A program made the translations under genes and the position numbers. Below, piece after piece: positions 4,335 to 25,079 of a stretch of DNA of 40,490 nt. Under the pieces are notes generated by a model. The model was not told the DNA's origin and did no database searches. It saw only the letters and a program-made list of their open reading frames with translations. Numbering within the stretch: position 1 is the stretch's first letter; every line of letters begins with the position of its first letter. Source of the DNA: Candidatus Bathyarchaeota archaeon (GTDB taxonomy: Archaea > Thermoproteota > Bathyarchaeia > Bathyarchaeales > Bathyarchaeaceae); NCBI GenBank assembly GCA_030615265.1, contig JAUWZP010000006.1, positions 1 to 40,490 of the forward strand, written 5' to 3'.

Positions 4335-4435
4335 AACTGGGAGTTTGCGGAGGGCATCTCCACTTCACTGCTTAATTAATTGTTTAGGTAGCTTTTTCAA
4401 GTGTTTAGGTATGGTTTCTTGAAGATGTTTCTTCT
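4335..4435. repeat. Dispersed repeat, intact A+B copy
   Basis: Unit A (ACTGGGAGTTTGCGGAGGGC then ATCTCCACTTCA) is directly followed by unit B (CTGCTTAATTAATTGTTTAG ...). This intact copy, with that at 24834-24905, shows what the sequence split by the mobile element looked like before insertion. On the minus strand unit A can form TGGAGA..TCCCCA hairpins, which in other copies are followed by T6 or more, as in a terminator. The rest of the 4277-4617 interval holds only a second unit-A piece and the guaAB promoter. Confidence 0.75.
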
Positions 4436-5611: not shown

Positions 5612-5731
5612 CAGAACACAAAACTGAGGCTAAATGGTATATGAAGCACATATATCGAAAACTGCAATATATCACGATTTGAAGGACGATATTTATAGAA
5701 AGAAACAACACACCCTTTTGATGATATGATC

Positions 5732-6010
5732 ATGAGCACAACAATTGGCCTAGAAGAACTTCTGAGGAAAAAAGCACATTTGAAAAACAATTTGCAGTCC
5801 CTATGCGAGGAAGAAAAACATTTAGCACATAAGTTCAGGATACTTGAAGAACAAAAAGTAGTTCACGAATTAGAAGACAAGATCAAAGCGAAACAGGTAG
5901 TTATAGGACAACTAAGAACCAAGAAAATAGAACTGGAAAAAAGATGGAATTCGAGTGTTTTGGAAACGATTTCAGGATTCCCTCCCTGGACAGAACAATT
6001 GCATACCTAA
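5732..6010 (+). CDS. Small coiled-coil protein, duplicate 1
   Basis: This is a 92-residue, highly charged protein predicted to be mostly one coiled coil (LEELLRKKAHLKNNLQSL ... ELEDKIKAKQVVIGQL). It is a paralogue of the protein at 6414: LEELL/LEGLL, EEKHLAHKFRI/EEKYLGQELRI and DKIKAKQVVIGQLR/EKIKAKRAVVEQLR align without gaps. I choose the ATG at 5732 because it aligns with the paralogue's start. Another ATG lies two codons upstream at 5726. Its C-terminus is shorter and differs from that of the paralogue. The function is unknown. Confidence 0.65.
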   Translation: MSTTIGLEELLRKKAHLKNNLQSLCEEEKHLAHKFRILEEQKVVHELEDKIKAKQVVIGQLRTKKIELEKRWNSSVLETISGFPPWTEQLHT

Positions 6011-6413: not shown

Positions 6414-6728
6414 TTGAGTTCAACAACAGAACTTGAAGGACTTCTAAAGGAAAGAGAGCAATTAACTAGGACATTACAGGCTATAGTGAACGAGGAGAAA
6501 TACTTAGGACAAGAGCTTAGGATAGTTCAAGAAAAAATAGCAGTCGCAGAGTTAAGAGAAAAGATTAAAGCGAAACGTGCAGTTGTGGAACAGTTAAGAT
6601 ACAAGGTAACGGAACTGAAAAAAAGATTGAATGCACATTCTTTGAAAGTGCGTCAAAATGTGGCTTCCAGCGGAGGTCAACAACCTAAACCCAAATACCC
6701 ACAGGTGCAGGTCCAAGAGACGCGGTAA
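6414..6728 (+). CDS. Small coiled-coil protein, duplicate 2
   Basis: This is a 104-residue coiled-coil protein starting at a TTG, with a Gln/Pro-rich flexible tail (GGQQPKPKYPQVQVQ). It is paralogous over its first 70 residues to the protein at 5732, about 690 bases upstream, and the 3' flanks are also similar, so the pair arose by a local tandem duplication. The start is supported by alignment with the duplicate (SSTTELEGLL against STTIGLEELL), not by a ribosome site. The function is unknown. Heptad-like Leu spacing suggests dimerisation or a scaffold role. Confidence 0.6.
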   Translation: MSSTTELEGLLKEREQLTRTLQAIVNEEKYLGQELRIVQEKIAVAELREKIKAKRAVVEQLRYKVTELKKRLNAHSLKVRQNVASSGGQQPKPKYPQVQVQETR

Positions 6729-12584: not shown

Positions 12585-12609
12585 ACAAAAAATGGGGAGT
12601 TTGCGGGGG
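12585..12609. other. attL: left half of the split dispersed repeat
   Basis: CAAAAAATGGGGAGTTTGCG, then GGGG, is the left half of repeat unit A and matches 24833-24856 and 4335-4352. The match stops at 12609, after CGGGGG (12604-12609). The rest of the unit (CATCTCCACTTCAATGCTTA...) is found at 22067 onward. I read this as the left attachment site of the element. Just inside it is CCGACAGATCG, which is similar to the inward-reading CCGACAAGTCGAT at the right end. Confidence 0.65.
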
Positions 12610-12682
12610 AAAAGCCGACAGATCGTAGGGTTATCTTCACCTTAAAATACGTGAATCCACTTTTAGAAGAGGTGAAACAAGC

Positions 12683-13846
12683 ATGAAAATAGATGACTTC
12701 TTAGACTACATTCGAGAAGCCAAGTCGAAGGCTACCTTCAAAAACTACACACAAGGCTTAAAGAAGTTTACAGCATGGTACGGAAAAGATGAAAATACGA
12801 TTTTGAAGGAAAGGTTTGAAGACTTACAAACTACAGATCAGAACAAGCGTAAACGGTTCAATAGAGAAATAGAGAAGTTTCATCGACACCTTAAGAATCT
12901 AGGACATCCACAAAACACGGCAGTAGCATACACGGAAGGCATAAGACAATTATTCAGATACTTCGACATGGACATTAAAAACTTGCCTAGTGAAGTCACA
13001 CGGAAAATTGTAACCGTAAAAGACTACACACCTAAAGTAAACGAATATCGAGATATGTTCAACTGTGGCAATGTCTTAGACAGAACAATAATTTCAATGG
13101 CTTTAGACTTAGCATGGCGTATAGGAGATTTCGTTAAGATCAGAAAAGACATGTTACCGAATCTAGAACAAGAGACACCGATACCCTTCGATTTGATAAC
13201 TGAGAAAGAAGAGGTAATTAGCAAATCCTTCTTAAGTGCTCAAACTGTGCAATTGCTTAAAACGTATCTGAAGACACTACCGAAAGAAAACCCTTACTTA
13301 TTCCATAACAGAAACGGTAGCCACTACGACCCTGAAGCCATAGGCAAAAGGCTTAAGGTGCTAGCGAAAAAAGCGAAGATTCACATACCGAAAGGGAAAA
13401 GGTTACGGTTTCATTGCTTCCGAAAGCGTTTCTTAAGTGAGTGTGCAAATCTGAAAATCGACATCAACACGGCTAAGATTATGGTAGGCAAAAGCGTTTC
13501 AAAAGACATGTTGACTTACCTAAGCGAGGTAGAACACAAAAAGGCTTTTGAAGAAGTACATGAAAGACTCCAGTTAACAGAGGTTAAGGCTGTGATAAAC
13601 GCTAAAGATTCTGAAATTGAAGCTTTAAACAAGCGAATCGGAGAACTAGAAATAATGAACAAAGGCTTAATCGAAATGCTAGCGAGAAATGCAAAAGCGT
13701 TAGGCATAGGTGGAGATTTAAGCGAAGGCACAGCTAAAGCAACCATAATAGAGCGCATTAAGGAACTAGGGAAACAAGCGGTAGAAAAGGAACAAGCAGA
13801 ATACAAGAAGCTAATCGAAAGCAACAACAATAACAACAACCACTAA
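12683..13846 (+). CDS. int: Tyrosine recombinase (integrase) of the element
   Basis: This is a site-specific recombinase of 387 residues that would insert and excise the element. The N-terminal part (to about residue 110) is a SAM-like core-binding domain (KATFKNYTQGLKKFTAWYG). The catalytic set is readable: Arg146 in DLAWRIGDF, a Lys in the beta-turn near 175-181, HCFR (His244, Arg247) and Tyr279 in DMLTYLSEVEH. After the tyrosine come about 100 residues of coiled coil and a run of asparagines, longer than in many integrases. The ATG follows AGAGGTG. It is the first gene inside the left end, reading inward. The gene appears intact. Confidence 0.92.
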   Translation: MKIDDFLDYIREAKSKATFKNYTQGLKKFTAWYGKDENTILKERFEDLQTTDQNKRKRFNREIEKFHRHLKNLGHPQNTAVAYTEGIRQLFRYFDMDIKNLPSEVTRKIVTVKDYTPKVNEYRDMFNCGNVLDRTIISMALDLAWRIGDFVKIRKDMLPNLEQETPIPFDLITEKEEVISKSFLSAQTVQLLKTYLKTLPKENPYLFHNRNGSHYDPEAIGKRLKVLAKKAKIHIPKGKRLRFHCFRKRFLSECANLKIDINTAKIMVGKSVSKDMLTYLSEVEHKKAFEEVHERLQLTEVKAVINAKDSEIEALNKRIGELEIMNKGLIEMLARNAKALGIGGDLSEGTAKATIIERIKELGKQAVEKEQAEYKKLIESNNNNNNH

Positions 13847-13945
13847 AACCCTTTTCCCTCTTTTCTTTTTGTTTGTTGTGTGCCAAAAATGGCTAGAGAA
13901 GCAAAGGTTAAATATGTGTCAAAATTGAATCTTTGAGGGATAAAG

Positions 13946-14125
13946 ATGGTTAAAGAAGGAAGAGGAAGATTGTTCAGAAGAGCAGATGGCAAGTACCTAA
14001 TCTATGTTCCATTAGCTTTAGCAGAAGACAGCATGTTTCCATTCAAAACTGATTCCTCTATAAAGCTGAAGATATCTTTCAAGATTGGAGACAACAAAGT
14101 AATCATAGAAAGCTGGAAAGAATAG
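13946..14125 (+). CDS. Small 59-aa protein, possibly AbrB-like
   Basis: The frame MVKEGRGRLFRRADGKYLIY..., ending ..KISFKIGDNKVIIESWKE, has alternating short strands and a Pro-Leu turn. This resembles small archaeal proteins with a GRLF+RxDGKYxIYxP..LAEDSMFPF core that I remember as common in Bathyarchaeia and Thermococci, perhaps with a swapped-hairpin DNA-binding fold. GAGGG lies seven bases before the ATG. It follows the integrase by 99 bases. I am confident it is a gene but not of its role; a small regulator is a guess. Confidence 0.6.
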   Translation: MVKEGRGRLFRRADGKYLIYVPLALAEDSMFPFKTDSSIKLKISFKIGDNKVIIESWKE

Positions 14126-14445
14126 AAAGAAGCGTAGTTTCTGTCGCCTACCCCAAAACCTACAGTCAAAATATGTCCGTTTTCGTACATATCCATTCCA
14201 CACATGCACAACTAGATAACTACACGGTTTTGTCGGGTTATCCATTACAAACCATACAAGTTACCATGCGAAAGCAGCTATTAAGCCACCACACCCACCA
14301 AACAACCCCACCCCCATTTCAAAATCGGAAAAACTACCCCTAGAAGTCCCTATTTCAAACCTTATTTCGTGTTTTGGAACCTATAGAAGCATGTGGGACT
14401 ACAGAAAGGAAAAAGATTTTATCTTATTGTGATCACTTAGGTATT
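14126..14445. other. Gene-free 320-base stretch inside the element
   Basis: I find no gene with a plausible start. The stretch contains C-rich plus-strand sequence (CCACCACACCCACCAAACAA, then CCCCACCCCC at about 14286-14315). It ends with AAAAAGATTTTATCTTATTG (14409-14428), a TATA-like stretch reading toward the inverted repeat at 14455. It could hold an origin or control region, but nothing proves it. Confidence 0.4.
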
Positions 14446-14562
14446 TGTTAATGTAGTCGGCGCGGTGGAGCACGATAATCACGCAACTGTGAAGCTGGAT
14501 TCCACCGACATTGGCCTCACTGGTGCGCTTTACGGTTCGGCACTCCACCGCTCTACCGACTT
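14446..14562 (+). ncRNA. Candidate structured RNA or regulatory hairpin
   Basis: AGTCGG-C-GCGGTGGAG (14455-14470) pairs with CTCCACCGC-TCTA-CCGACT (14543-14561), giving a stem of 15 base pairs broken by one small internal loop and enclosing 72 bases. A TATA-like box at about 14414-14424 would start plus-strand transcription near 14446. Nothing in it folds as a tRNA: there is no valid T-arm or acceptor stem. On the minus strand it directly follows the stop of the winged-helix gene (14563), so it could alternatively be that operon's end signal. I see no protein-coding frame that explains it. Confidence 0.35.
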
Positions 14563-15447
14563 CTATTCGGCATTGTTTGTCTCAGCTCTTTTCTCAGGAT
14601 ATTTTTCAACAACTCTGTTGATCAAAATCTCGCCAGCTAGAGTTAATTCCCATTCTCCTGAAGGGTTTTTCTCGATAGGGGCAGGACTCCAGTTGCTTCT
14701 AGTTAGATTGTAACAAGTGTCATAGATCCTTCTCTTATTCATATTAAGAGTGCTCGCAATTTCATCTGTAGACAATGTCTTTTGTCCAGCAAGTGTCTTT
14801 AGGATTCCGAAGAACAATTGTGATTTAATTAACCGCTCTACCATCTCATCAATTTTTTCGTAGGATTTCGACAGGTTATCCACGCGCATTCGGAAGCTTT
14901 GTACACCTTGTACAAGTTTTTGAATAGCTTCTTGCTTTCTCAAAGTGCCTTTCACTATGATTTTATCTGATAAAATCGTTACATCGTTAAAGCGCAGAGG
15001 GTGTTCTTGCCTTAACAAATCGCATATCGTGTCTAGTACATCATCTCCTAGATCCATACCCTCAAGGAAGGGGAAAGCAGTTTCTGAGTTTTCTAGTGTC
15101 GGATTTTCTAATTCGGCTGGAAATGGCAAGTTGCGCATTTTTTCCAAAAGTTCTGTCTTAAGTCGGTTCAATTGATTGAGCAACATCTCAGATTTTTGTC
15201 GGTAATCCTCAATCTTTTCCTCGATTTTCCTAGTTTTTGACTGCTTTTTAGTCTGACCATAGAGAACCTCCATAGCAGTCTCCATCTGCCGTTCTTCTTC
15301 AGCTACTTTTGATAACTCCTCCATTTTGACTTGCGTATTCTTCTCACAGTTATTCAAATCTGATTTAATGCGGATGTACTCCACTGCCTTCACTTGGAAC
15401 GTTTGAATGTGAGATCTTATTTGTTCTTTCTGGTCTTCTGTAAGCAT
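14563..15447 (-). CDS. Coiled-coil plus winged-helix protein, paralogue 1
   Basis: This 294-residue protein has residues 1-115 as a long charged coiled coil, about 120-200 as a small alpha/beta domain (LRFNDVTILSDKIIVKGTLR), and about 212-280 as a winged helix (ILKTLAGQKTLSTDEIAST, LNMNKRRIYDTCYNLTR, ending with the wing GEWELTLAGEIL). The upstream gene has the same three-part design and alignable sequence, so the pair arose by duplication. The ATG follows AGGTGAA, which overlaps the end of the upstream gene, with 2 bases between genes, so they are co-translated. I know no family with this layout. DNA-bound scaffolding, segregation or replication initiation are guesses. Confidence 0.75.
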   Translation of the reverse strand: MLTEDQKEQIRSHIQTFQVKAVEYIRIKSDLNNCEKNTQVKMEELSKVAEEERQMETAMEVLYGQTKKQSKTRKIEEKIEDYRQKSEMLLNQLNRLKTELLEKMRNLPFPAELENPTLENSETAFPFLEGMDLGDDVLDTICDLLRQEHPLRFNDVTILSDKIIVKGTLRKQEAIQKLVQGVQSFRMRVDNLSKSYEKIDEMVERLIKSQLFFGILKTLAGQKTLSTDEIASTLNMNKRRIYDTCYNLTRSNWSPAPIEKNPSGEWELTLAGEILINRVVEKYPEKRAETNNAE

Positions 15448-15449
15448 TG

Positions 15450-16424
15450 TCAGTTCACCTCTTTTCCATAAATGACCTTTTTTATTTCATTATTGTTTAG
15501 ATATTGGTTGAGAGTAGACTTTCGAGGTTTTTCCTCTTTCTTCTCAACGGGAATTTCAACAGAAACCTCTTGTTTAGACTTTTTTGCAGTTTGCTTGCCT
15601 TTAAGGTACTTATCCTGATATCGCACCCATACAAGAGAGCCGAGAAAACTAAGTTCATATGTTCCAGTTGACACTCGAATAAAGGGAAATTTCTCTTTCA
15701 GAACGTTTTCTGCATTTGTGAAGAAGTTTCGAACCCTCTTCTGCCCCTTAGTTGTTTCAAGACCTAAATGGGAGTATAAATCTTGGTTTGTGATTCTTTT
15801 ACTTCCTTTGATTGCCTCCCAAATATCTCGGTAAGGACTATCATAGAAATAGTCAGCTACATCTTCAACGATAGGATCTTTTTCTTCAAGGGCAATCCGT
15901 GCTAAGCGGCCAATGTTGCTTTGTAAAGCCTCCAAAACTTTAGCAATCTCAGTTAGATCTTTGGCGTTTGTCACAACAACTTTATCTCCGTGAAGCTCTA
16001 CGTTGTCTAGTTTCAAAGGTATGTCCAAACTCAAAATAGAAGCAATAAGTCTTACAGCATTATCGCAAGGATTTCCTTTGAAAGTTATGGATGTTTTCTT
16101 ATCTACTTTTGGAAGTTCACTCGAAAGACTAAAAGATACATTTTTCAACCCCTCCAAAACCTCTTTTTCTAGCTTTTCAATCTTCTTCTGAAAAACTTCT
16201 GCCTCTTTCTTAACCTTCTCTAGTTCATCTACTCCCTTTTCACCTTCATATGCTTCATCACTCAATTTTGCAATTGTCTTTAGATATTGAACTTCTTCAC
16301 TTCTCTTTTTGGCCTTGATCTCAAACTCATATATTTCATTCTGTTTAACTTTCAACTGTTGTTTGAGTGAGTTTATCTCTTCACATTTTTCTTCAATGTC
16401 CGATAGCTTCATACAAACACTCAC
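15450..16424 (-). CDS. Coiled-coil plus winged-helix protein, paralogue 2
   Basis: This 324-residue protein starts with coiled coil (residues 5-100). Next comes a small domain aligned with its neighbour's (PLKLDNVELHGDKVVVTNAK against PLRFNDVTILSDKIIVKGTL), then a winged helix (YRDIWEAIKGSKRITNQDL ... VSTGTYELSFLGSLVW), then a Lys/Glu-rich linker and a short helical end. A TATA-like CTTTTTAAAG on the minus strand at about 16447-16459 lies some 25-30 bases before the ATG, predicting a leaderless mRNA. It is the first gene of a two-gene unit with the protein at 14563. The extra C-terminal linker, absent from the partner, suggests that the two have diverged in role, possibly as a heterodimer. 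Confidence 0.75.
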   Translation of the reverse strand: MSVCMKLSDIEEKCEEINSLKQQLKVKQNEIYEFEIKAKKRSEEVQYLKTIAKLSDEAYEGEKGVDELEKVKKEAEVFQKKIEKLEKEVLEGLKNVSFSLSSELPKVDKKTSITFKGNPCDNAVRLIASILSLDIPLKLDNVELHGDKVVVTNAKDLTEIAKVLEALQSNIGRLARIALEEKDPIVEDVADYFYDSPYRDIWEAIKGSKRITNQDLYSHLGLETTKGQKRVRNFFTNAENVLKEKFPFIRVSTGTYELSFLGSLVWVRYQDKYLKGKQTAKKSKQEVSVEIPVEKKEEKPRKSTLNQYLNNNEIKKVIYGKEVN

Positions 16425-16446
16425 ACTAACATACTAACATACAACG

Positions 16447-16460
16447 CTTTAAAAAGCTTT
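16447..16460. promoter_or_regulatory. TATA-like promoter box, possibly bidirectional
   Basis: The A/T-rich near-palindrome GCTTTAAAAAGCTTTT lies 23-36 bases before the ATG of the leftward paralogue gene (16424). That is the distance expected for an archaeal TATA box with a leaderless transcript. On the other strand it is 45-55 bases before the small frame at 16503. Confidence 0.45.
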
Positions 16461-16502
16461 TGGCGAAACATCTTTGTATGCATGCATGCCTATTACTTGG
16501 TA

Positions 16503-16604
16503 ATGCCGCTTGTCCTATTGCTCGGTTTCATCTATGAGCCATTAATAGGGTTCATACTTCTGGTTGCTTTACTTGTTGTTCTCATCATATGGCTGGATAA
16601 CTAG
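16503..16604 (+). CDS. 33-aa single-pass membrane microprotein (putative)
   Basis: An ATG frame of 33 codons, MPLVLLLGFIYEPLIGFILL.., ending LVVLIIWLDN and TAG, is almost entirely hydrophobic with one acidic residue in the middle and an Asp-Asn end. It would form one membrane helix or a hairpin. There is no strong ribosome site, but a TATA-like box lies 45-55 bases upstream. Archaeal viruses commonly carry such short membrane proteins. It is too short to be certain. The 848-base interval 16425-17272 otherwise holds a shared 32-bp repeat and a degenerate duplication. Confidence 0.4.
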   Translation: MPLVLLLGFIYEPLIGFILLVALLVVLIIWLDN

Positions 16605-16621
16605 AGAACTCGTAGATTGTC

Positions 16622-16653
16622 TTCATAGAATACGAGTATCAAGCAAGATGAAG
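16622..16653. repeat. 32-bp sequence shared with chromosome near guaAB (copy 2)
   Basis: This is the partner of 5580-5611: 30 of 32 bases are identical, with 25 consecutive matches from 16629. Here CTTCAT (16621-16626) and ATGAAG (16648-16653) also form an inverted repeat around the ATAC-GA-GTAT palindrome, so it could be a protein-binding site or hairpin. It lies 17 bases past the 33-aa frame. Confidence 0.75.
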
Positions 16654-16869
16654 TAAACACCAAATATTGAGACTCGGAATCAGAATGCCCATTTTTTTCT
16701 TCGGGGTCGTGCCGTTTGGTGTCGGGTGTTTGCTGCTTGGGTTGTGTCTGGGTAGCTTGCTTGATCTCGGTTCCTAGTTGTGTCGGTGCTACCGTACACA
16801 CTATGAATGAGACTTGTATGGTGCTTGATTTCGGTGTGGTCGGTAAATCCTTTGTGAGTCTTATGGAAG

Positions 16870-17245
16870 CGTTACGCTGGGGTAGAGGGGGTGTTTATAC
16901 TTCTTCCTAATCATACTTTTACCTTTATACCCTACTACAGAGTAACTCGCCCATAGATTACCATCGATTCTAGCCCATTGTAGTAACCAATCCACATATC
17001 TCGTTGCAATTTTGTATTTGATGGCACGGTTCGTTCGGCTGGGAGTGATAGCGGTGTTTTACGACTATTATTTCTATTGTCGATGGCAAAATTAGCGAAG
17101 GTAGGGGTGGGGGTGTATTACTGTTTCTAATCATACTTTTACCTTTATACCCTACTACAGTTATATTTTCCCATTGTTCCCCATCGATTCTAGCCCATTG
17201 TAGTAACCCATCTACATATCTCATTGTAATTTTAGTAATGGGTGT
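16870..17245 (-). repeat. Two degenerate direct repeats, 220-bp period, once coding
   Basis: Sequence at 16872-17030 recurs at 17092-17245 with a period of 220. The best part is the 16 bases TAATCATACTTTTACC (16908 and 17128), followed by the shared CATCGATTCTAGCCCATTGT. On the minus strand both copies read RYVD.LLQWARIDG..W....VVGYKGKSMIR, with synonymous changes between copies. The right copy is in frame with the nuclease gene just past its stop (17273). The left copy is in a different frame and lacks an ATG. I read them as a duplicated, decaying C-terminal module. An 84-codon frame (16970-17224) spans both but changes meaning in the left copy. Confidence 0.6.
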
Positions 17246-17272
17246 AGAGGCTACGGCTTTGTTTAGTAGTGC

Positions 17273-17893
17273 TCACTCTTTAAGGATTTTGAAGAGTTCG
17301 TATGCTGGATGCCTTTCGGTTACTTCTGTGAGTGGGGAGTAGTAGCATGGGGCGTAGAAGCATGGGTATTCGTTGTTTGCGATGGGTAGTTTTTCGACTT
17401 CTTCCTTTGTTAGGAATCCTATTATGTAGGCTTTGGTTAATTCTTTGTCAATTAGTTTGATTGAAACGGTTATGTCTGAAGCTGTCCATTCAGCAACTTT
17501 TATCGTTAAGTTTTTGTAGCGTTCGGTGGGTTGTGTGGTTTTCACCTGTATTGTTTTTCCTTTACATTCAAAATCGTGTGGTCTTCTCAATTCGTGTGGG
17601 TACATTGGTTCTGCATACTGATAGTCTATTTTTAGTTCGTAGAGTGTTGCTTTGAAGATTTGTTCGCCGAGCAAACCGAAAAACATGGTTTCTTTTTGGT
17701 TAGGCTTCCAGTCGCGTGAGATGGCTTCATCTTTGTAGCGTTGCATTAAGAGGTCTGTGTCTTTTTTGGCCATTAAGAGGATTTCTTTATCGATCTTGTA
17801 AACGGCATAGCCTAAGGTTTCTCTTATCTCAACTAGTCCTAATGGTAATACTTTAAAGAAGTCCTTAGTATCGAATTCCTTTATTTGGCTCAT
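17273..17893 (-). CDS. Predicted PD-(D/E)XK-type nuclease
   Basis: This 206-residue protein bears a restriction-endonuclease-like core: a helix Glu in GLLGEQIFKATL (Glu77), then HDFECKGKTIQVKTT with Asp107 and the Q-V-K variant (Gln116, Lys118) of the (D/E)-x-K catalytic motif. This fold serves Holliday-junction resolvases, repair nucleases and restriction enzymes, and the cellular partner here is unknown. I place the start at 17893, which follows GAGGAGG, not at the in-frame ATG at 17941. It sits in the leftward operon of the element. Directly after its stop, in frame, is the RYVD..LLQWARIDG module described at 16870-17245, as if the protein once had a longer C-terminus. Confidence 0.65.
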   Translation of the reverse strand: MSQIKEFDTKDFFKVLPLGLVEIRETLGYAVYKIDKEILLMAKKDTDLLMQRYKDEAISRDWKPNQKETMFFGLLGEQIFKATLYELKIDYQYAEPMYPHELRRPHDFECKGKTIQVKTTQPTERYKNLTIKVAEWTASDITVSIKLIDKELTKAYIIGFLTKEEVEKLPIANNEYPCFYAPCYYSPLTEVTERHPAYELFKILKE

Positions 17894-17944
17894 TCGTTGT
17901 TTGCCTCCTCTTCTGTGTGCCACATGCATGCATGCAAGCAATGG

Positions 17945-18610
17945 CTAAAGCCCTATCGTGATTGGTCTGGAAAGGTATGTTGCTATTAGTCGGTTCTGTT
18001 CCTGTAGTTCTGAATCGTTAAGTAAGAAGCCGTTTCTAACCGCTTGAACCCATTGCATGCGCTCACTTTTGGGTATAGGTAAGGGTTCAAAAACGCTGAG
18101 CTGGTAGCCACTTTGAGAGAGTTCGACAACTAGGTTGTTCCAGCTATTTATCATACTTCCTAAGGCTGTGAGGTCTGTAGGATAAAGCAACATTTCTTCT
18201 AGATTGGTGTGTTTCTTTATGATGTTTTTTCCATGCTGGATTTGAGGTAACAGTTCTGCCAATTCTCTGAGCCACCTACGGTTCTGGTCTTGGTCTGACA
18301 TCTCTTCCATTGGATTCTGTTTGAAGTGCACTTTTCCTTCTGCTTGGATGCGTTTGGCGTATGGCTCTATGACACTGAGTATTCTCGCTTCTGTTTCTGC
18401 TTCGATTAAACGTGCATCATGGCTTTCGCTGGGAATTGTCTGTCTAACTTCCTCTCTCACTTTTTCGACTACTTTCGGACATAGTCTCCGTCTGATGTTT
18501 TCTACGATTTCACTGAGTTCTAGGCTTTGTTGAAATTCCGTGGTTGCTAGTCTTCGTTTTTCCCCTTGGTAGGCTTCTTCGACTTTATTCCAATAACTCA
18601 TGTTTATCAC
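17945..18610 (-). CDS. Helical protein of unknown function
   Basis: This 221-residue protein is rich in Glu, Arg and Leu and predicted to be all-alpha, with a possible coiled-coil zone (residues 30-75). It has no cysteines beyond one, no membrane segment and no motif I recognise. A GTG at 18610 overlaps the upstream stop (GTGA), and an ATG three codons later (18601) is equally possible. Either way it is translationally coupled to the gene before it. It is one of three unrecognised genes, followed by the nuclease. Confidence 0.65.
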   Translation of the reverse strand: MINMSYWNKVEEAYQGEKRRLATTEFQQSLELSEIVENIRRRLCPKVVEKVREEVRQTIPSESHDARLIEAETEARILSVIEPYAKRIQAEGKVHFKQNPMEEMSDQDQNRRWLRELAELLPQIQHGKNIIKKHTNLEEMLLYPTDLTALGSMINSWNNLVVELSQSGYQLSVFEPLPIPKSERMQWVQAVRNGFLLNDSELQEQNRLIATYLSRPITIGL

Positions 18611-19128
18611 TTATCCTTTGTTTTTCGGAAAATTTTGTTTTGTCGGATTCTAGAAATGAAATTTAAGGTTGCATTCAAATTGTTTAATGGTAAATCGCTG
18701 CTTTTGTAGGAGTATGTCATGTTTGAATTTGAGTTTAGTCTTCGGAATTCTTCATCGTTTTTCTCCATTTCAGCTAATAAAGCGTGCAATACCTTTGCTT
18801 GTCTGATGCCTTCGCTTGTTAAGGTTTCTGCTGGGAGTTTTCGGATTTTTGCGATTGTTTCCTCGATTGTATTGTGAATCTTGGCTCTTTTTTCAAGTGG
18901 CTTCTTTAATTTGGCTTTTTGTTTAGCCTTTTGTCTTTCTACATATACCTCTTTTTCCTCTATTCTATCCGCAACTTTCCTTAGTCTTTTTGAGCCTACA
19001 TCGAAAAGAATGTCGCTGAGTTTTTCGTTTGGTAGTCTGGTCATTTCACCTAGTAGAGTAGGCATGTTTTGGATTCTTGGGTCTGATGGGATTGCTTTCT
19101 TTTTGAAGATCCTGGATACGTTTGGCAT
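18607..19128 (-). CDS. Basic helical protein of unknown function
   Basis: This 173-residue protein has a strongly basic, Lys/Ala-rich helix in the middle (RQKAKQKAKLKKPLEKRAK, about residues 64-82) and an Asn/Ser-rich flexible part near the end. It resembles small nucleic-acid-binding or structural proteins by composition only. Its ATG directly abuts the stop of the 57-aa gene (TAA-ATG), and AAGGAG lies in the end of that gene. It overlaps the next gene by 4 bases, so all are one operon. I do not recognise a family. Confidence 0.65.
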   Translation of the reverse strand: MPNVSRIFKKKAIPSDPRIQNMPTLLGEMTRLPNEKLSDILFDVGSKRLRKVADRIEEKEVYVERQKAKQKAKLKKPLEKRAKIHNTIEETIAKIRKLPAETLTSEGIRQAKVLHALLAEMEKNDEEFRRLNSNSNMTYSYKSSDLPLNNLNATLNFISRIRQNKIFRKTKDK

Positions 19129-19302
19129 TTACTTGATCTCCTTCAGAATTTTCTCCAAGTCTTCCACTAAGATTGCTTTGTCGCTGTGGGCTTTGTCTCG
19201 TGCTAGGTCTCCGAGAAGGTTAGCTTTTGCTCGGATTTTTCTAAGGAGTTTCTTTTTGCTGATTTTTTGGTCTTTCTTTTTTCGCCGAAACATTTTTTTC
19301 AT
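19129..19302 (-). CDS. 57-aa highly basic protein, first gene of leftward operon
   Basis: The frame MKKMFRRKKKDQKISKKKLL ... ends EDLEKILKEIK. The first 25 residues are mostly Lys/Arg, and the rest forms an amphipathic helix. The ATG has a strong ribosome site (AAGGAGAC), and the stop TAA is immediately followed by the next gene's ATG, so it is very likely translated. Proteins like this may coat DNA or bind RNA. This is an inference from charge alone. Confidence 0.65.
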   Translation of the reverse strand: MKKMFRRKKKDQKISKKKLLRKIRAKANLLGDLARDKAHSDKAILVEDLEKILKEIK

Positions 19303-19322
19303 GTCTCCTTGTAACTAAAAAT

Positions 19323-19403
19323 GAAGCCCCCTCGCCCAAACAGGAGAAGGGATGAAGGGGCTTCGAAGGGACAGCAGTCTCTTCACTGCCACTAAAGAGT
19401 TGC
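19323..19403. promoter_or_regulatory. Two consecutive hairpins upstream of the leftward operon
   Basis: GAAGCCCC (19323-19330) pairs perfectly with GGGGCTTC (19357-19364) around 26 bases. AGCA-GT-CTCTT (19372-19382) then pairs with AAGAG-T-TGCT (19394-19403) around 11 bases. They lie in the 138-base gap between the ribbon-helix-helix gene (stop 19441) and the operon start (19302), and would be in any leftward transcript reading through from it. They may act as an attenuator, terminator or processing site. No T-run follows the first stem on either strand. Confidence 0.5.
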
Positions 19404-19440
19404 TTGTGGGTTTCTGGTGTGCGGTCAAAATCAGCGTGAA

Positions 19441-19698
19441 TCATGGATTTTCTCTCCTATTAAATTCGGTTGCTCTCTTTTCGAAAAGTTTAATCAAACT
19501 TTCAAGCTTGGTCTCGTATTCTCTAAATGGGTTTTCTGAGGATTCATTCGAAAGTAAACATTCGATTTCAGAGGGCAATGTCCGAATCAAAAGATTGTTT
19601 AAGATGTTATCTCGACTTTTACCTGACACAAAACTGAAAAGCTTTAAAGCTTCGTAAACATCGCAATCAAGTTTAATGTGAGCGTCCTTGCGTTCCAT
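19441..19698 (-). CDS. Ribbon-helix-helix type DNA-binding protein
   Basis: This 85-residue protein has an N-terminus (AHIKLDCDVYEALKLFSFVS, then GKSRDNILNNLLIRTL) with the pattern of a ribbon-helix-helix repressor: a short basic strand, helix, Gly/Ser turn, helix. The C-terminal 35 residues are a charged coiled coil. It is divergently transcribed from the zinc-ribbon gene at 19762 through a shared promoter that has an operator-like inverted repeat (19744-19759). Self-regulation and control of the neighbouring genes are therefore likely, though inferred. Confidence 0.65.
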   Translation of the reverse strand: MERKDAHIKLDCDVYEALKLFSFVSGKSRDNILNNLLIRTLPSEIECLLSNESSENPFREYETKLESLIKLFEKRATEFNRRENP

Positions 19699-19728
19699 TG
19701 TACATCGAATGTATTTGGGTTCACAGAA

Positions 19729-19760
19729 CTTATAAAGGACAAATTACTCTAGAGAGTAAC
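19729..19760. promoter_or_regulatory. Divergent promoter: palindromic TATA box and operator-like repeat
   Basis: CTTATAAAG (19729-19737) reads as CTTTATAAG on the other strand, so one box can serve both directions. It lies 25 bases from the GTG at 19762 and 31 bases from the ATG at 19698, which predicts leaderless transcripts both ways. Between the box and the rightward start is TTACTC-TAGA-GAGTAA (19744-19759), a perfect 6+6 inverted repeat placed where a bound repressor would block RNA polymerase. Confidence 0.6.
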
Positions 19761-19761
19761 G

Positions 19762-20253
19762 GTGAATGTGTTGAGAAGCTACGGGTTTCTTTCTAAAGGT
19801 GAACGGGATTATCTGAGTCGTAGGAAAAAGGTTTCAAAAACGCATGGTAGGGTTTTAGAACATCGTATTCGTGAATCTGCTCATCAGGCTGTTCAGGATT
19901 TTGAGCGTTTTTTGGGGTGGCTTGAAAAGTCGGGTAAGAAGCCTACTTGGTACACAGAATCGAGCAAGAAGCCTTATGAACATGCAAAGAAGTTCTTTGC
20001 TCTTAGAGGTGGGCAGTTAGAAGTTACCACTAAGACTGTAGTTGAAGGAAAAGAGAAAAAAAGGTTAAGAAAAAAACGGATTAAAGTTTACACATTTGAC
20101 ATTCACAATGCTCCGTGTCCCCATTGTGGATTGAAGTCGCTTATCATTTTCTGTAGAAATTGTAAGGCTTCGTTCACTCATGGGAAAATGGGTTCTAAGA
20201 ATGAATTTGTTTCTACGGGAGCAACTACATCGATACAGATTAAGAAGGATTGA
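19762..20253 (+). CDS. Zinc-ribbon protein of unknown function
   Basis: This 163-residue, very basic protein has a helical N-terminal region (RIRESAHQAVQDFERFLGWL) and then CPHCGLKSLIIFCRNC (two CxxC pairs 10 residues apart) near residues 119-134, a probable zinc ribbon. The first residues are RSYGFLSKGERDYLSRRKK. The start is the GTG at 19762, suited to a leaderless mRNA from the TATA box at 19729-19737. It is the first gene to the right of the divergent promoter. It is likely a DNA- or RNA-binding protein; the family is not recognised. Confidence 0.65.
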   Translation: MNVLRSYGFLSKGERDYLSRRKKVSKTHGRVLEHRIRESAHQAVQDFERFLGWLEKSGKKPTWYTESSKKPYEHAKKFFALRGGQLEVTTKTVVEGKEKKRLRKKRIKVYTFDIHNAPCPHCGLKSLIIFCRNCKASFTHGKMGSKNEFVSTGATTSIQIKKD

Positions 20254-20353
20254 ACTATATCCCTAATCTAAGAATTATATACTGAAAGTTTTCTTGCTGG
20301 TTAGAGTAAAAGCAATAAAAGAGAAACGCACAATTCAATCTGGTTGTAAAATA

Positions 20354-20566
20354 ATGGTTGAGTCTAGGCAATATAAGGTAGTTCAAGCGGAATGTCCTAT
20401 ATGTGGAAAAAGGTTAGAAGGTTTATCAGAAAAACATTGGATGCACAACTTCAGAATACACTTACGACTAGCTCAAAGGCACATGTTACCGTTTAGAGAA
20501 ATTGACCGAATAACAAAAACTGTAAGCCCTTCGTTCCGTACTGTCACCAAAACGAAATATTACTGA
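20354..20566 (+). CDS. Small C2H2-type zinc-finger protein
   Basis: A 70-residue protein from the ATG at 20354 contains CPICGKRLEGLSEKHWMHNF, then RIHLRLAQRH. Its CxxC pair and two histidines spaced by six residues could form a C2H2-like finger with a long connecting loop. Short single-finger proteins are common in archaeal viruses and plasmids. A TTG 20 codons upstream (20294) is an alternative start, but the intervening residues look non-conserved. An ATTATATA box at about 20272-20279 suggests its own promoter. Confidence 0.55.
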   Translation: MVESRQYKVVQAECPICGKRLEGLSEKHWMHNFRIHLRLAQRHMLPFREIDRITKTVSPSFRTVTKTKYY

Positions 20567-20714
20567 AGTAGTTTCATCCTACCTTTCGTTCTCACATACT
20601 CCTCATACTACTCCTTATTCTGCTAATACTACTATTCAGAAGCTTTAAATCTGAAAAGAGACTTACTTTAAGCGTTATAACCCTAAGGGGGTGTGAAAAA
20701 CGGAAAAAACTGCA

Positions 20715-20861
20715 ATGGTTCTGAATGATGTTACAAGCCGATTAGCTCATGTGCTTAGAATGTCTCCTACGAAACTGATTGAGAAGGAAGTGTGTGAAGT
20801 TCAGCAAATCTTGTTAGAGCATCTATTAGACCTAGAACCGAATCTTGACTTGGATGTCTGA
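20715..20861 (+). CDS. 48-aa putative element protein
   Basis: The frame MVLNDVTSRLAHVLRMSPTK ... LLEHLLDLEPNLDLDV, stop TGA, looks like one or two amphipathic helices with an acidic end. It lies between the zinc-finger gene and the ATPase gene in the same direction. The ribosome site is weak (GGAAAA, 10 bases before). A TTATAA box at about 20675 could drive it. Natural composition and position support a gene, but shortness limits confidence. Confidence 0.4.
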   Translation: MVLNDVTSRLAHVLRMSPTKLIEKEVCEVQQILLEHLLDLEPNLDLDV

Positions 20862-20973
20862 GAAAAAGCCTTTGGGATAAAGGTTTCTCCGAAAAAGGGG
20901 CGTAAAATGGGCTTAAAAACGTTTATAAGCCTTGGTTTCCCATTATTTACTGTTAAAATGTGGGAGATTAAGA

Positions 20974-22020
20974 ATGACAACACCGACAAGATCGGAAATT
21001 AGAGAACTTGCACAGCAAAAAGAGAGTGAATGTAATGGAAGTCTACCTTCTATAACTTGCGAAGATAGCGAACTTAGAGAAAACGGATCGTGGTTTGAAG
21101 CTAGAGATCAGCTTATGCGAAATGAAGAGAGAAGCCAAGTCTTAAACTATCTTGAAGAAATGGCATGTGAGAACGGGTTCAGGCTTGTTCCGAAAGCACG
21201 ATTTGAAGGGCAACAAAACTTCATAGACTTGAAAACGTTGAATGAAGAAATATTGAAGTTTGGTGGCTTGTTTGTTGTTGCGAATAAGGGCTGTGGCAAA
21301 ACGAATAGTCTTATGCAGATCGCTAGAGAGTTAAGAAAAGACGCTAGAAATCGAGTAATCGTTTTCGAAACTTTTCCCTTGTGGATGCACACATTCGACA
21401 GTATGCCGTATTGTTACATTGAAGATTCTGACGTGATTAAAACTGATAACGGATTCGAAAGCGTAAGGCATGAAGACGTGAAAAGACTTCTAAGCCAAAA
21501 TAAAGACTTACTGATCTGTCTAGGCATTGAAGACATTGACCGACTTAGTTATTTTGTCTCTAAGATTATCTATGACCTCTACAGAAAACGATATTTGAAG
21601 GCTTACAAGTACGGATTAGAAAGCATAAAAGAAAACGTAATCTTCGTATGCGAAGAGTCTCAAAACTTATTCGATTCTAGCGTCTTAAACAAAACCGTGT
21701 TTCGTAGACTTAGAAAAATTTACAGCGAATCGAGAAACTTCAAAATACACTATCTTATGGCTTCTCAGCGAATTCAAGATTTGAATACTAAGATCAGAGC
21801 TAGAGCTAGGCTTCTAGTAGGACGTGTGAGCCTAGATGATTATGAGCTAAAGATTTCTAGGCTACTCAGAAATAGCCAATATAGAAGAGAAGTGCTAGAG
21901 TTTGAAGTCGGAAAATTCCTTTATGCCGACACAGATTCAATGATTCGCTTCGACAAATTTGAGCAATGCGGCAAGCCTTATGAATGTGTCTACGACATTG
22001 AAAAGGTGTTAGCGCAATGA
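20974..22020 (+). CDS. HerA/FtsK-like P-loop ATPase of the element
   Basis: This 348-residue ATPase has an unusual Walker A, ANKGCGKTN (residues 103-111), preceded by GGLFVV. Walker B is NVIFVCEES (221-229) with the Glu-Glu of the HerA/FtsK group, and the sensor glutamine is in MASQR (262-266). Such enzymes pump DNA, for packaging into virions, for transfer or in end resection. The size fits viral packaging ATPases, but I see no capsid gene to settle it. I choose the ATG at 20974, which follows GGGAG, over the TTG at 20932. TTTATAAG at 20919-20926 is its likely TATA box. It ends 40 bases from the right attachment site. Confidence 0.7.
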   Translation: MTTPTRSEIRELAQQKESECNGSLPSITCEDSELRENGSWFEARDQLMRNEERSQVLNYLEEMACENGFRLVPKARFEGQQNFIDLKTLNEEILKFGGLFVVANKGCGKTNSLMQIARELRKDARNRVIVFETFPLWMHTFDSMPYCYIEDSDVIKTDNGFESVRHEDVKRLLSQNKDLLICLGIEDIDRLSYFVSKIIYDLYRKRYLKAYKYGLESIKENVIFVCEESQNLFDSSVLNKTVFRRLRKIYSESRNFKIHYLMASQRIQDLNTKIRARARLLVGRVSLDDYELKISRLLRNSQYRREVLEFEVGKFLYADTDSMIRFDKFEQCGKPYECVYDIEKVLAQ

Positions 22021-22059
22021 GAACCCCTAAACCGATAACTCTACTTTTTATCGACTTGT

Positions 22060-22135
22060 CGGGGGGCATCTCCACTTCAATGCTTAATTAATTGCTTAGG
22101 CAGCTTTTTCAAGTGTTTAAGTATGGTTTTTTGAG
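22060..22135. other. attR and right half of the split dispersed repeat
   Basis: CGGGGGG (22060-22066), then CATCTCCACTTCAATGCTTA and ATTAATTGCTTAGG.., is the right part of unit A followed by a full unit B. It matches 4353-4435 and 24855-24905. Sequence left of 22060 (TTATCGACTTGT) has no similarity to the repeat, marking the end of the element. TCGACTTGTCGG is close to the reverse complement of CCGACAGATCG just inside the left end, as expected for recombinase arm sites. Confidence 0.65.
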
Positions 22136-22213
22136 GATGACAGTATGTAAGAGTAGGCTTTCTCGCACGCGCAAAAAATGGGGAAAGGGTGTTTGGCCTA
22201 TGGAGCATTGGAG

Positions 22214-24833: not shown

Positions 24834-24905
24834 CAAAAAATGGGAAGTTTGCGGGGAGCATCTCCACTTCATTGCTTATTTAATTGTTTAGGTAACTTTT
24901 TCCAA
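24834..24905. repeat. Dispersed repeat, intact A+B copy
   Basis: CAAAAAATGGGAAGTTTGCG, then GGGAGCATCTCCACTTCATT and GCTTATTTAATTGTTTAGG, is an uninterrupted copy that aligns across the junction split by the element. It lies in the 380-base gene-free interval 24700-25079. Apart from it, that interval holds the topoisomerase promoter (AAGTTTAAG near 25024-25032) and nothing else I can identify. Unit B degrades after about 24900. Confidence 0.75.
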
Positions 24906-25079
24906 TGTCCAAGCCACCTGAGACCTATTCCACCCTGTCAAAGTTAAATAGCTCCATACAATTCATGATGCTTGAGACATTTCAGTACCCTAGAAGGCTC
25001 AAAACATGAATCCTAAGAAAGCAAAGTTTAAGTCTTCTATCTTCCCCGAATAAGAGACTAAACAGGCGGAAAAACTCAG

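Follow-up and report, generated by a model that had tools for sequence, protein, structure and literature searches.

Passages in PMC11500499 describe NTPase-free bacterial segregation proteins that combine a winged helix with a coiled coil, namely RacA, RocS and pSK1 Par, and a TubR route of segregation is described in part of PMC9178275. On the archaeal side, passages in PMC9871819 place coiled-coil genes around tubulin-like genes, and a Snf7 gene adjoins artubulin in a section of Yutin and Koonin (PMC3349469). Here we analysed a stretch of 40,490 nucleotides (the window) from Candidatus Bathyarchaeota archaeon, contig JAUWZP010000006.1, in which 2 neighbouring genes of an integrated element, A and B, encode proteins with a new architecture that combines known parts with one uncharacterised domain whose genomic association is telling.

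The preliminary description had reported 2 adjacent genes only 2 bases apart, which proved exact: the coordinates were confirmed (Table 1) and the spacer from A to B reads CA. The pair forms one operon-like unit behind a TATA-like box (TTTTTAAA) and the short tandem repeat that adjoins it. AlphaFold2 models, made from alignments of 37 rows, reached a mean pLDDT of 84.9 for B and 67.2 for A, the model of A being weak, and instead of unrelated folds they presented the same order of elements in both proteins (two-helix hairpin; strand or strands, helix and three strands; long helix; winged helix), in agreement with the three-part layout first described. The added C-terminal tail belongs to A; it is predicted to be disordered over residues 279-324 and, while rich in lysine, is net positive by only 4. 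In the middle domains, the peptide PLKLDNVELHGDKVVV lies at A 136 and PLRFNDVTILSDKIIV at B 150.

Table 1. Features of the gene pair and of the element around it (positions in the window)
Feature	Position	Strand	Description
Gene A	15450..16424	-	324 aa, leading gene of the pair; starts with GTG at 16424, TGA ends at 15450; in-frame ATG at codon 5
Gene B	14563..15447	-	294 aa, follows A in the pair; starts with ATG at 15447, TAG at 14563
A residues 7-93	16146..16406	-	Coiled-coil hairpin, two long helices (AlphaFold2)
A residues 94-180	15885..16145	-	Small alpha/beta domain and the helix after it; homologous, by profile comparison, to the artubulin-linked family
A residues 184-283	15576..15875	-	Predicted winged helix (AlphaFold2, fold comparison)
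A residues 284-324	15453..15575	-	Lysine-rich tail, predicted disordered (AlphaFold2)
B residues 4-105	15133..15438	-	Coiled-coil hairpin, helices 4-63 and 70-105 (AlphaFold2)
B residues 106-204	14836..15132	-	Small alpha/beta domain with strands 117-127, helix 134-145 and strands 151-166, followed by a long linking helix
B residues 205-283	14599..14835	-	Predicted MarR/TubR-type winged helix; RRIYD = residues 239-243
Integrated element carrying the pair	12604..22065		About 9.46 kb; CGGGGG at both ends (12604-12609, 22060-22065)
Tyrosine integrase, Xer-like	12683..13846	+	Pfam PF00589 1.7e-9; NCBIfam XerA_Arch 1.2e-17, below its cut-off
HerA-like P-loop ATPase	20932..22020	+	PADLOC HerA 5.1e-6
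8-bp unit ACTAACAT, 2.2 tandem copies	16425..16442		Directly before the A start; candidate operator
Near-perfect long hairpin, 107 nt	14455..14561		Starts 1 bp after the B stop; candidate cis site or RNA element

BLASTP aligned A with B at 22% identity over A 66-273 (E = 3e-11). Because coiled coils can mislead, both proteins were split into their parts and each part was scored against 1000 shuffles of B. The coiled coils alone did not rise above chance (129 of the 1000 shuffles were as good), whereas the middle domain alone was equalled by 1 shuffle, the winged helix alone by 2, and the two together by none (score 90 versus a shuffle mean of 31, sd 5). On these sequence comparisons, A and B are true paralogues whose similarity goes beyond the coiled coil, and the alignment of middle domains and winged helices claimed for the pair is upheld.

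No match at curated cut-off was found for A or B in Pfam or NCBIfam and no significant relative in PHROGs, PADLOC or PDB sequences, and a search of PDB with the domain profile returned no family claiming the middle domain. The earlier statement that no described family has this layout holds for these 5 collections but not for the middle domain taken by itself, which has relatives encoded behind artubulin. The winged helix of B gave a sub-threshold match to PF02319 E2F_TDP (E 3e-4, 20.9 bits, curated cut-off 25.7 bits), absent in A, and this match makes up the likeness of B to E2F/DP heterodimers together with RRIYD, which we take to be an E2F-like motif. The domain order of E2F/DP is the reverse of that in B, and the likeness is probably convergent.

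Foldseek alone gave no match at E 0.001 for either model, nor for B against a viral library. In fold comparisons, the winged helix of B matched TubR 3m9a with Z 12.9 (86 aligned residues, rmsd 2.4 A), tied with RosR (12.7) and MarR (12.3), so that these scores do not separate TubR from ordinary MarR regulators; AspA followed with Z 10.8. The values for A were weak and tied, with a best Z of 8.6, the first ten rows from 8.6 to 8.1 and TubR at 8.4. In the models, the winged helix of the pair is thus of MarR/TubR type, a predicted DNA-binding-type fold as first proposed. These comparisons bear on the winged helix and barely on the middle domain.

The relatives of the middle domain came from the search for the pair elsewhere. 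Searching 256 genomes of the class with A or B as single query recovered the own genome only. No relative was confirmed by pattern scans (A and B in viral contigs, A+B in genome contigs) or by tblastn of both proteins against phages and plasmids, and the A-B pair is known from one genome only. A profile of A + B run over 398 genomes of the phylum found matches in 3 others. One match (L007, genome G430) was rejected as the coiled coil of a protein read from its sequence as a Rad50-like ATPase, and a saccharopine-dehydrogenase-like protein (L077, genome G043), read in the same way, was also discarded. The other two of the 3 matches to the A + B profile were 181-aa proteins of ammonia-oxidising archaea, which belong to the same phylum as the host, each encoded a few bases behind a tubulin-family gene.

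With the coiled coil removed, hhalign aligned the middle domain of these relatives to A+B at E 1.8e-6 (score 37.5); 200 column shuffles reached 19.5 at most, and the alignment when reversed scored 13.0. An hmmsearch with 30 relatives recovered B at E 4.8e-6 over its full length and 5.5e-4 with the middle domain only (about 2000 sequences), whereas the middle domain of A alone reached E 0.16 against 0.15 for the best shuffle; the family membership of A therefore depends largely on its paralogy with B. According to these profiles, the middle domain of A and B is homologous to the coiled-coil protein of about 181 residues encoded behind artubulin in ammonia-oxidising archaea.

This protein was found in 37 of the 120 genomes of the ammonia-oxidiser class, and when 359 genomes sampled from the phylum were searched with a profile of 12 diverse members, 28 matched, namely the own one and 27 of families f29, f58 and f61. 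Open frames of 131-219 aa were present in 26 of these 27, the remaining one (G508) having a 40-aa remnant; such frames are too short for a winged helix, so that among the family members of this sample only A and B carry one. A pattern scan for the artubulin-linked family in viral contigs gave no confirmed relative.

In a scan of labelled genomes, 37 loci were collected, nearly all labelled Nitrosopumilus, Nitrosarchaeum, Nitrosotenuis, Nitrosotalea or Thaumarchaeota. The upstream neighbour is artubulin, as indicated by Pfam Tubulin (3.6e-14), by best PDB matches to Asgard and gamma tubulins and, in many loci, by the G-box GGGTGSS. It lies directly upstream of the partner gene in 35 of the 37 loci, the other two starting at a contig end, with a gap of 2-16 bp in the 34 loci measured (an example locus is L081, 3611-5546), and this constant neighbour is an apparent operon partner of artubulin in Nitrosopumilales-type archaea. 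In a second set of loci, which shares species with the first, artubulin was present in 27 of 30, and the three without it within reach all belong to family f58; no artubulin was seen at three Nitrososphaeraceae-like loci. As some relatives stand without artubulin, the middle domain is not obligatorily bound to a tubulin. In the Nitrosarchaeum locus L081 a CdvB-like gene precedes artubulin and presumably corresponds to the Snf7 gene that Yutin and Koonin (PMC3349469) report, and the downstream partner gene may already be drawn in PMC3349469 or PMC9871819.

The partner gene of G570 is split in two beside the usual downstream MscS-like gene, with no artubulin found upstream, and in G508, where the partner survives as a remnant only, there is at most a doubtful artubulin trace (E 0.27). 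The decayed partner genes of these two genomes, at 2944-3163 of L137 and 3868-3987 of L168, have no intact artubulin seen beside them, which is consistent with joint loss. Separately, a contig labelled Gammaproteobacteria (BMAH01000059.1) carries an artubulin locus typical of ammonia-oxidising archaea and is probably a mislabelled or mixed assembly.

The host assembly (1.86 Mb, 119 contigs, 96% complete) gave no PF00091 tubulin/FtsZ match, in a search whose positive control matched 13 of 14 known genomes; the match was present in 26 of the 41 relatives searched, the own genome being one of those searched, and a tubulin/FtsZ gene was found in 0 of 3 genomes of the window's genus (G000, G055 and G056, two of them incomplete). 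Should the middle domain bind tubulin or FtsZ, its partner would then not be host-encoded as far as seen. The window also contains a topoisomerase IB (Pfam) and a CODH/ACS-like gene run that begins at about 29 kb and was recognised by eye, a gene content in keeping with a Bathyarchaeia-like archaeon. Outside the element, two small coiled-coil ORFs at 5726-6010 and 6414-6728 are apparently paralogous to one another.

That the pair sits in an archaeal element, as the preliminary description had it, is supported by the integrase, the HerA-like ATPase and the two ends (Table 1). Read by eye, the left flank ends GAGTTTG-CGGGGG and the right one resumes CGGGGG-GCATCTCC; rejoined with the core counted once, the flanks give a stretch matching a chromosomal repeat that has further copies at 4341 and 24845, and the element appears to be inserted into one copy of this dispersed repeat. 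Its intergenic copies were observed at 4341-4427, 22053-22139, 24845-24931 and 2820-2906. An empty site in sister genomes was considered and dropped, since the flanking propeller gene, although present in G054 and G055, does not adjoin the left-flank genes there. Relatives of the element ATPase occur in 25 of 256 genomes, own included, at 42-46% in G062, G053 and G087, and these three were rejected as further carriers, having no A-B pair. Among the element proteins scanned there was no replication initiator, ParA or tubulin match (10 proteins for ParA-type, Pfam). An additional element protein at 17273-17941 shows by eye a PD-(D/E)XK-like pattern (DFECKGKTIQVKTT), with no family match beyond a weak PcfJ.

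Regarding possible sites on the DNA, no array of centromere-like or origin-type iterons was found, and the repeat at 16425-16442 amounts to only 2.2 copies of its 8-bp unit. The hairpin behind B is far more stable than shuffles (z -5.06 for the RNA fold and -3.82 for the DNA fold) and occurs only in the own genome among 26; ARAGORN gave no tRNA there and Rfam no match. Upstream of A, two 125-nt direct repeats (82%) lie at 16889-17013 and 17109-17233. They were dropped as a centromere since they encode a repeated peptide on the minus strand, RYVDxLLQWARIDG...VVGYKGKSMIR, for which reason they are probably coding remnants.

Taking these data together, we tentatively propose, giving it somewhat less than an even chance, that A and B are an autoregulated pair of DNA-binding adaptors that tethers or segregates the element. 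A and B would dimerise through their coiled coils, and the paired winged helices would bind a site on the element, for which the A-promoter repeat and the hairpin downstream of B are candidates. Binding at the repeat beside the TATA-like box would repress the A-B operon itself, whereas the coiled-coil and alpha/beta part would dock on a host protein or structure, by which the element DNA would be tethered and distributed as the cell divides. In this way the pair would work like the NTPase-free partition or anchoring proteins RacA, RocS and pSK1 Par, or play the part that the DNA-binding half has in a TubR system. This reading is supported by the paralogy beyond the coiled coil, the layout common to both models, the middle-domain homology, the tied TubR match of B and the arrangement of the pair as one unit, by the position of the relatives' gene behind artubulin, a tubulin-type cytoskeletal GTPase, and by the precedent for a winged helix plus coiled coil in the segregation proteins described in passages of PMC11500499. 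It is weakened by the missing tubulin and iterons, the lack of a ParA-like match among the element proteins scanned, the tie between TubR and MarR, the weak model of A, the shuffle-level score of the A middle domain alone, the relatives without artubulin and the occurrence in one genome only. Of the 3 roles first suggested for the pair (segregation, replication or chromatin-like packing), segregation would thus be favoured and replication is kept as a rival, while packing found no support.

Among the structural neighbours of the winged helix of B, MarR/ArsR-type regulators are in the majority, and the short tandem repeat separates the TATA-like box from the A start, as would be expected if A and B were transcription regulators, that is, a heterodimeric MarR-like repressor pair over the integrase, the ATPase and their own operon, with the middle domain as a dimerisation or ligand module. 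We consider this somewhat unlikely, given that neither protein has a MarR match in Pfam up to E 10 and that the pair carries two fused long coiled-coil hairpins together with a domain common to the artubulin-operon protein, features that to our knowledge are not usual for MarR repressors.

Quite unlikely, in our judgement, is a replicative role in which A and B would bind an origin of the excised element via their winged helices and act as its replication initiators or helicase loaders. Winged helices are common in replication initiators, a weak viral structural neighbour (A0A481V7D3, E 0.034) is called a plasmid replication protein and, because no other scanned protein of the element matches an initiator, some element gene should serve as one if the element replicates. 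Against this role, A and B have no match to an archaeal replication-initiator sequence family in Pfam, PHROGs or NCBIfam (where divergent initiators could be missed) and none to an ATPase, primase or nuclease family, origin-type iterons are missing, and the element may not replicate by itself.

A very unlikely alternative, to which the relatives without nearby artubulin lend some weight (two of them adjoin a gene read from sequence as Nep1-like), is that the middle domain is ancient and generic, for example a module for protein interactions in the archaeal chromosome or ribosome world, its artubulin link in one order being incidental and its use in A and B unrelated to segregation, as in defence or host take-over; artubulin, however, adjoins in all 35 loci of the 37-locus set where it would be visible, and PADLOC gave no match to A or B.

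Returning to tethering or segregation, a bolder form of this proposal, which we regard as the least probable of all the readings weighed here, is that A and B are DNA-to-cytoskeleton linkers, in which a TubR-like DNA-binding head would be fused to the artubulin partner domain, that domain coming from ammonia-oxidising archaea by way of a mobile element and a duplication giving rise to a heterodimer. If true, this would make A and B the first archaeal proteins that we know of to tie DNA to tubulin-type or division machinery, a primitive kinetochore-like adaptor. Whichever reading applies, the analysis links artubulin, a described archaeal tubulin, to a constant and unnamed apparent operon partner, whose domain has been recruited into a DNA-binding-type pair on a mobile element. 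Whether the partner binds artubulin, and whether A and B bind DNA as a heterodimer, would bear on the role of artubulin and on the inheritance of small archaeal elements.

Compared with described systems, A and B would belong to neither the RacA, RocS and pSK1 Par families nor the TubR family. Like RacA, RocS and pSK1 Par, they join a winged helix to a long coiled coil and have no NTPase, but those proteins carry an N-terminal MerR-like DNA-binding domain and no alpha/beta domain, whereas the DNA-binding domain of A and B would be C-terminal and MarR/TubR-like. TubR of type III plasmid partition and AspA of pNOB8 have a winged-helix fold resembling that modelled for A and B, which could likewise provide a DNA-binding half for partition, this likeness being tied with generic MarR folds; we know of no TubR with a coiled-coil hairpin or alpha/beta domain of the A/B kind. 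TubR works with TubZ, whereas the scanned proteins of the element gave no tubZ and the own genome no tubulin family gene; in the pNOB8-type AspA-ParB-ParA system ParA is encoded alongside, whereas the 10 element proteins scanned gave no ParA-type Pfam match. A further likeness is to the downstream protein of the artubulin operon (L079-L115), which has the N-terminal coiled-coil pattern and the homologous middle domain but is a chromosomal, single-copy protein of about 181 aa without a winged helix, encoded behind artubulin, whereas A and B, with 324 and 294 aa, are paired, lie on an element without a tubulin gene and have a winged helix added.
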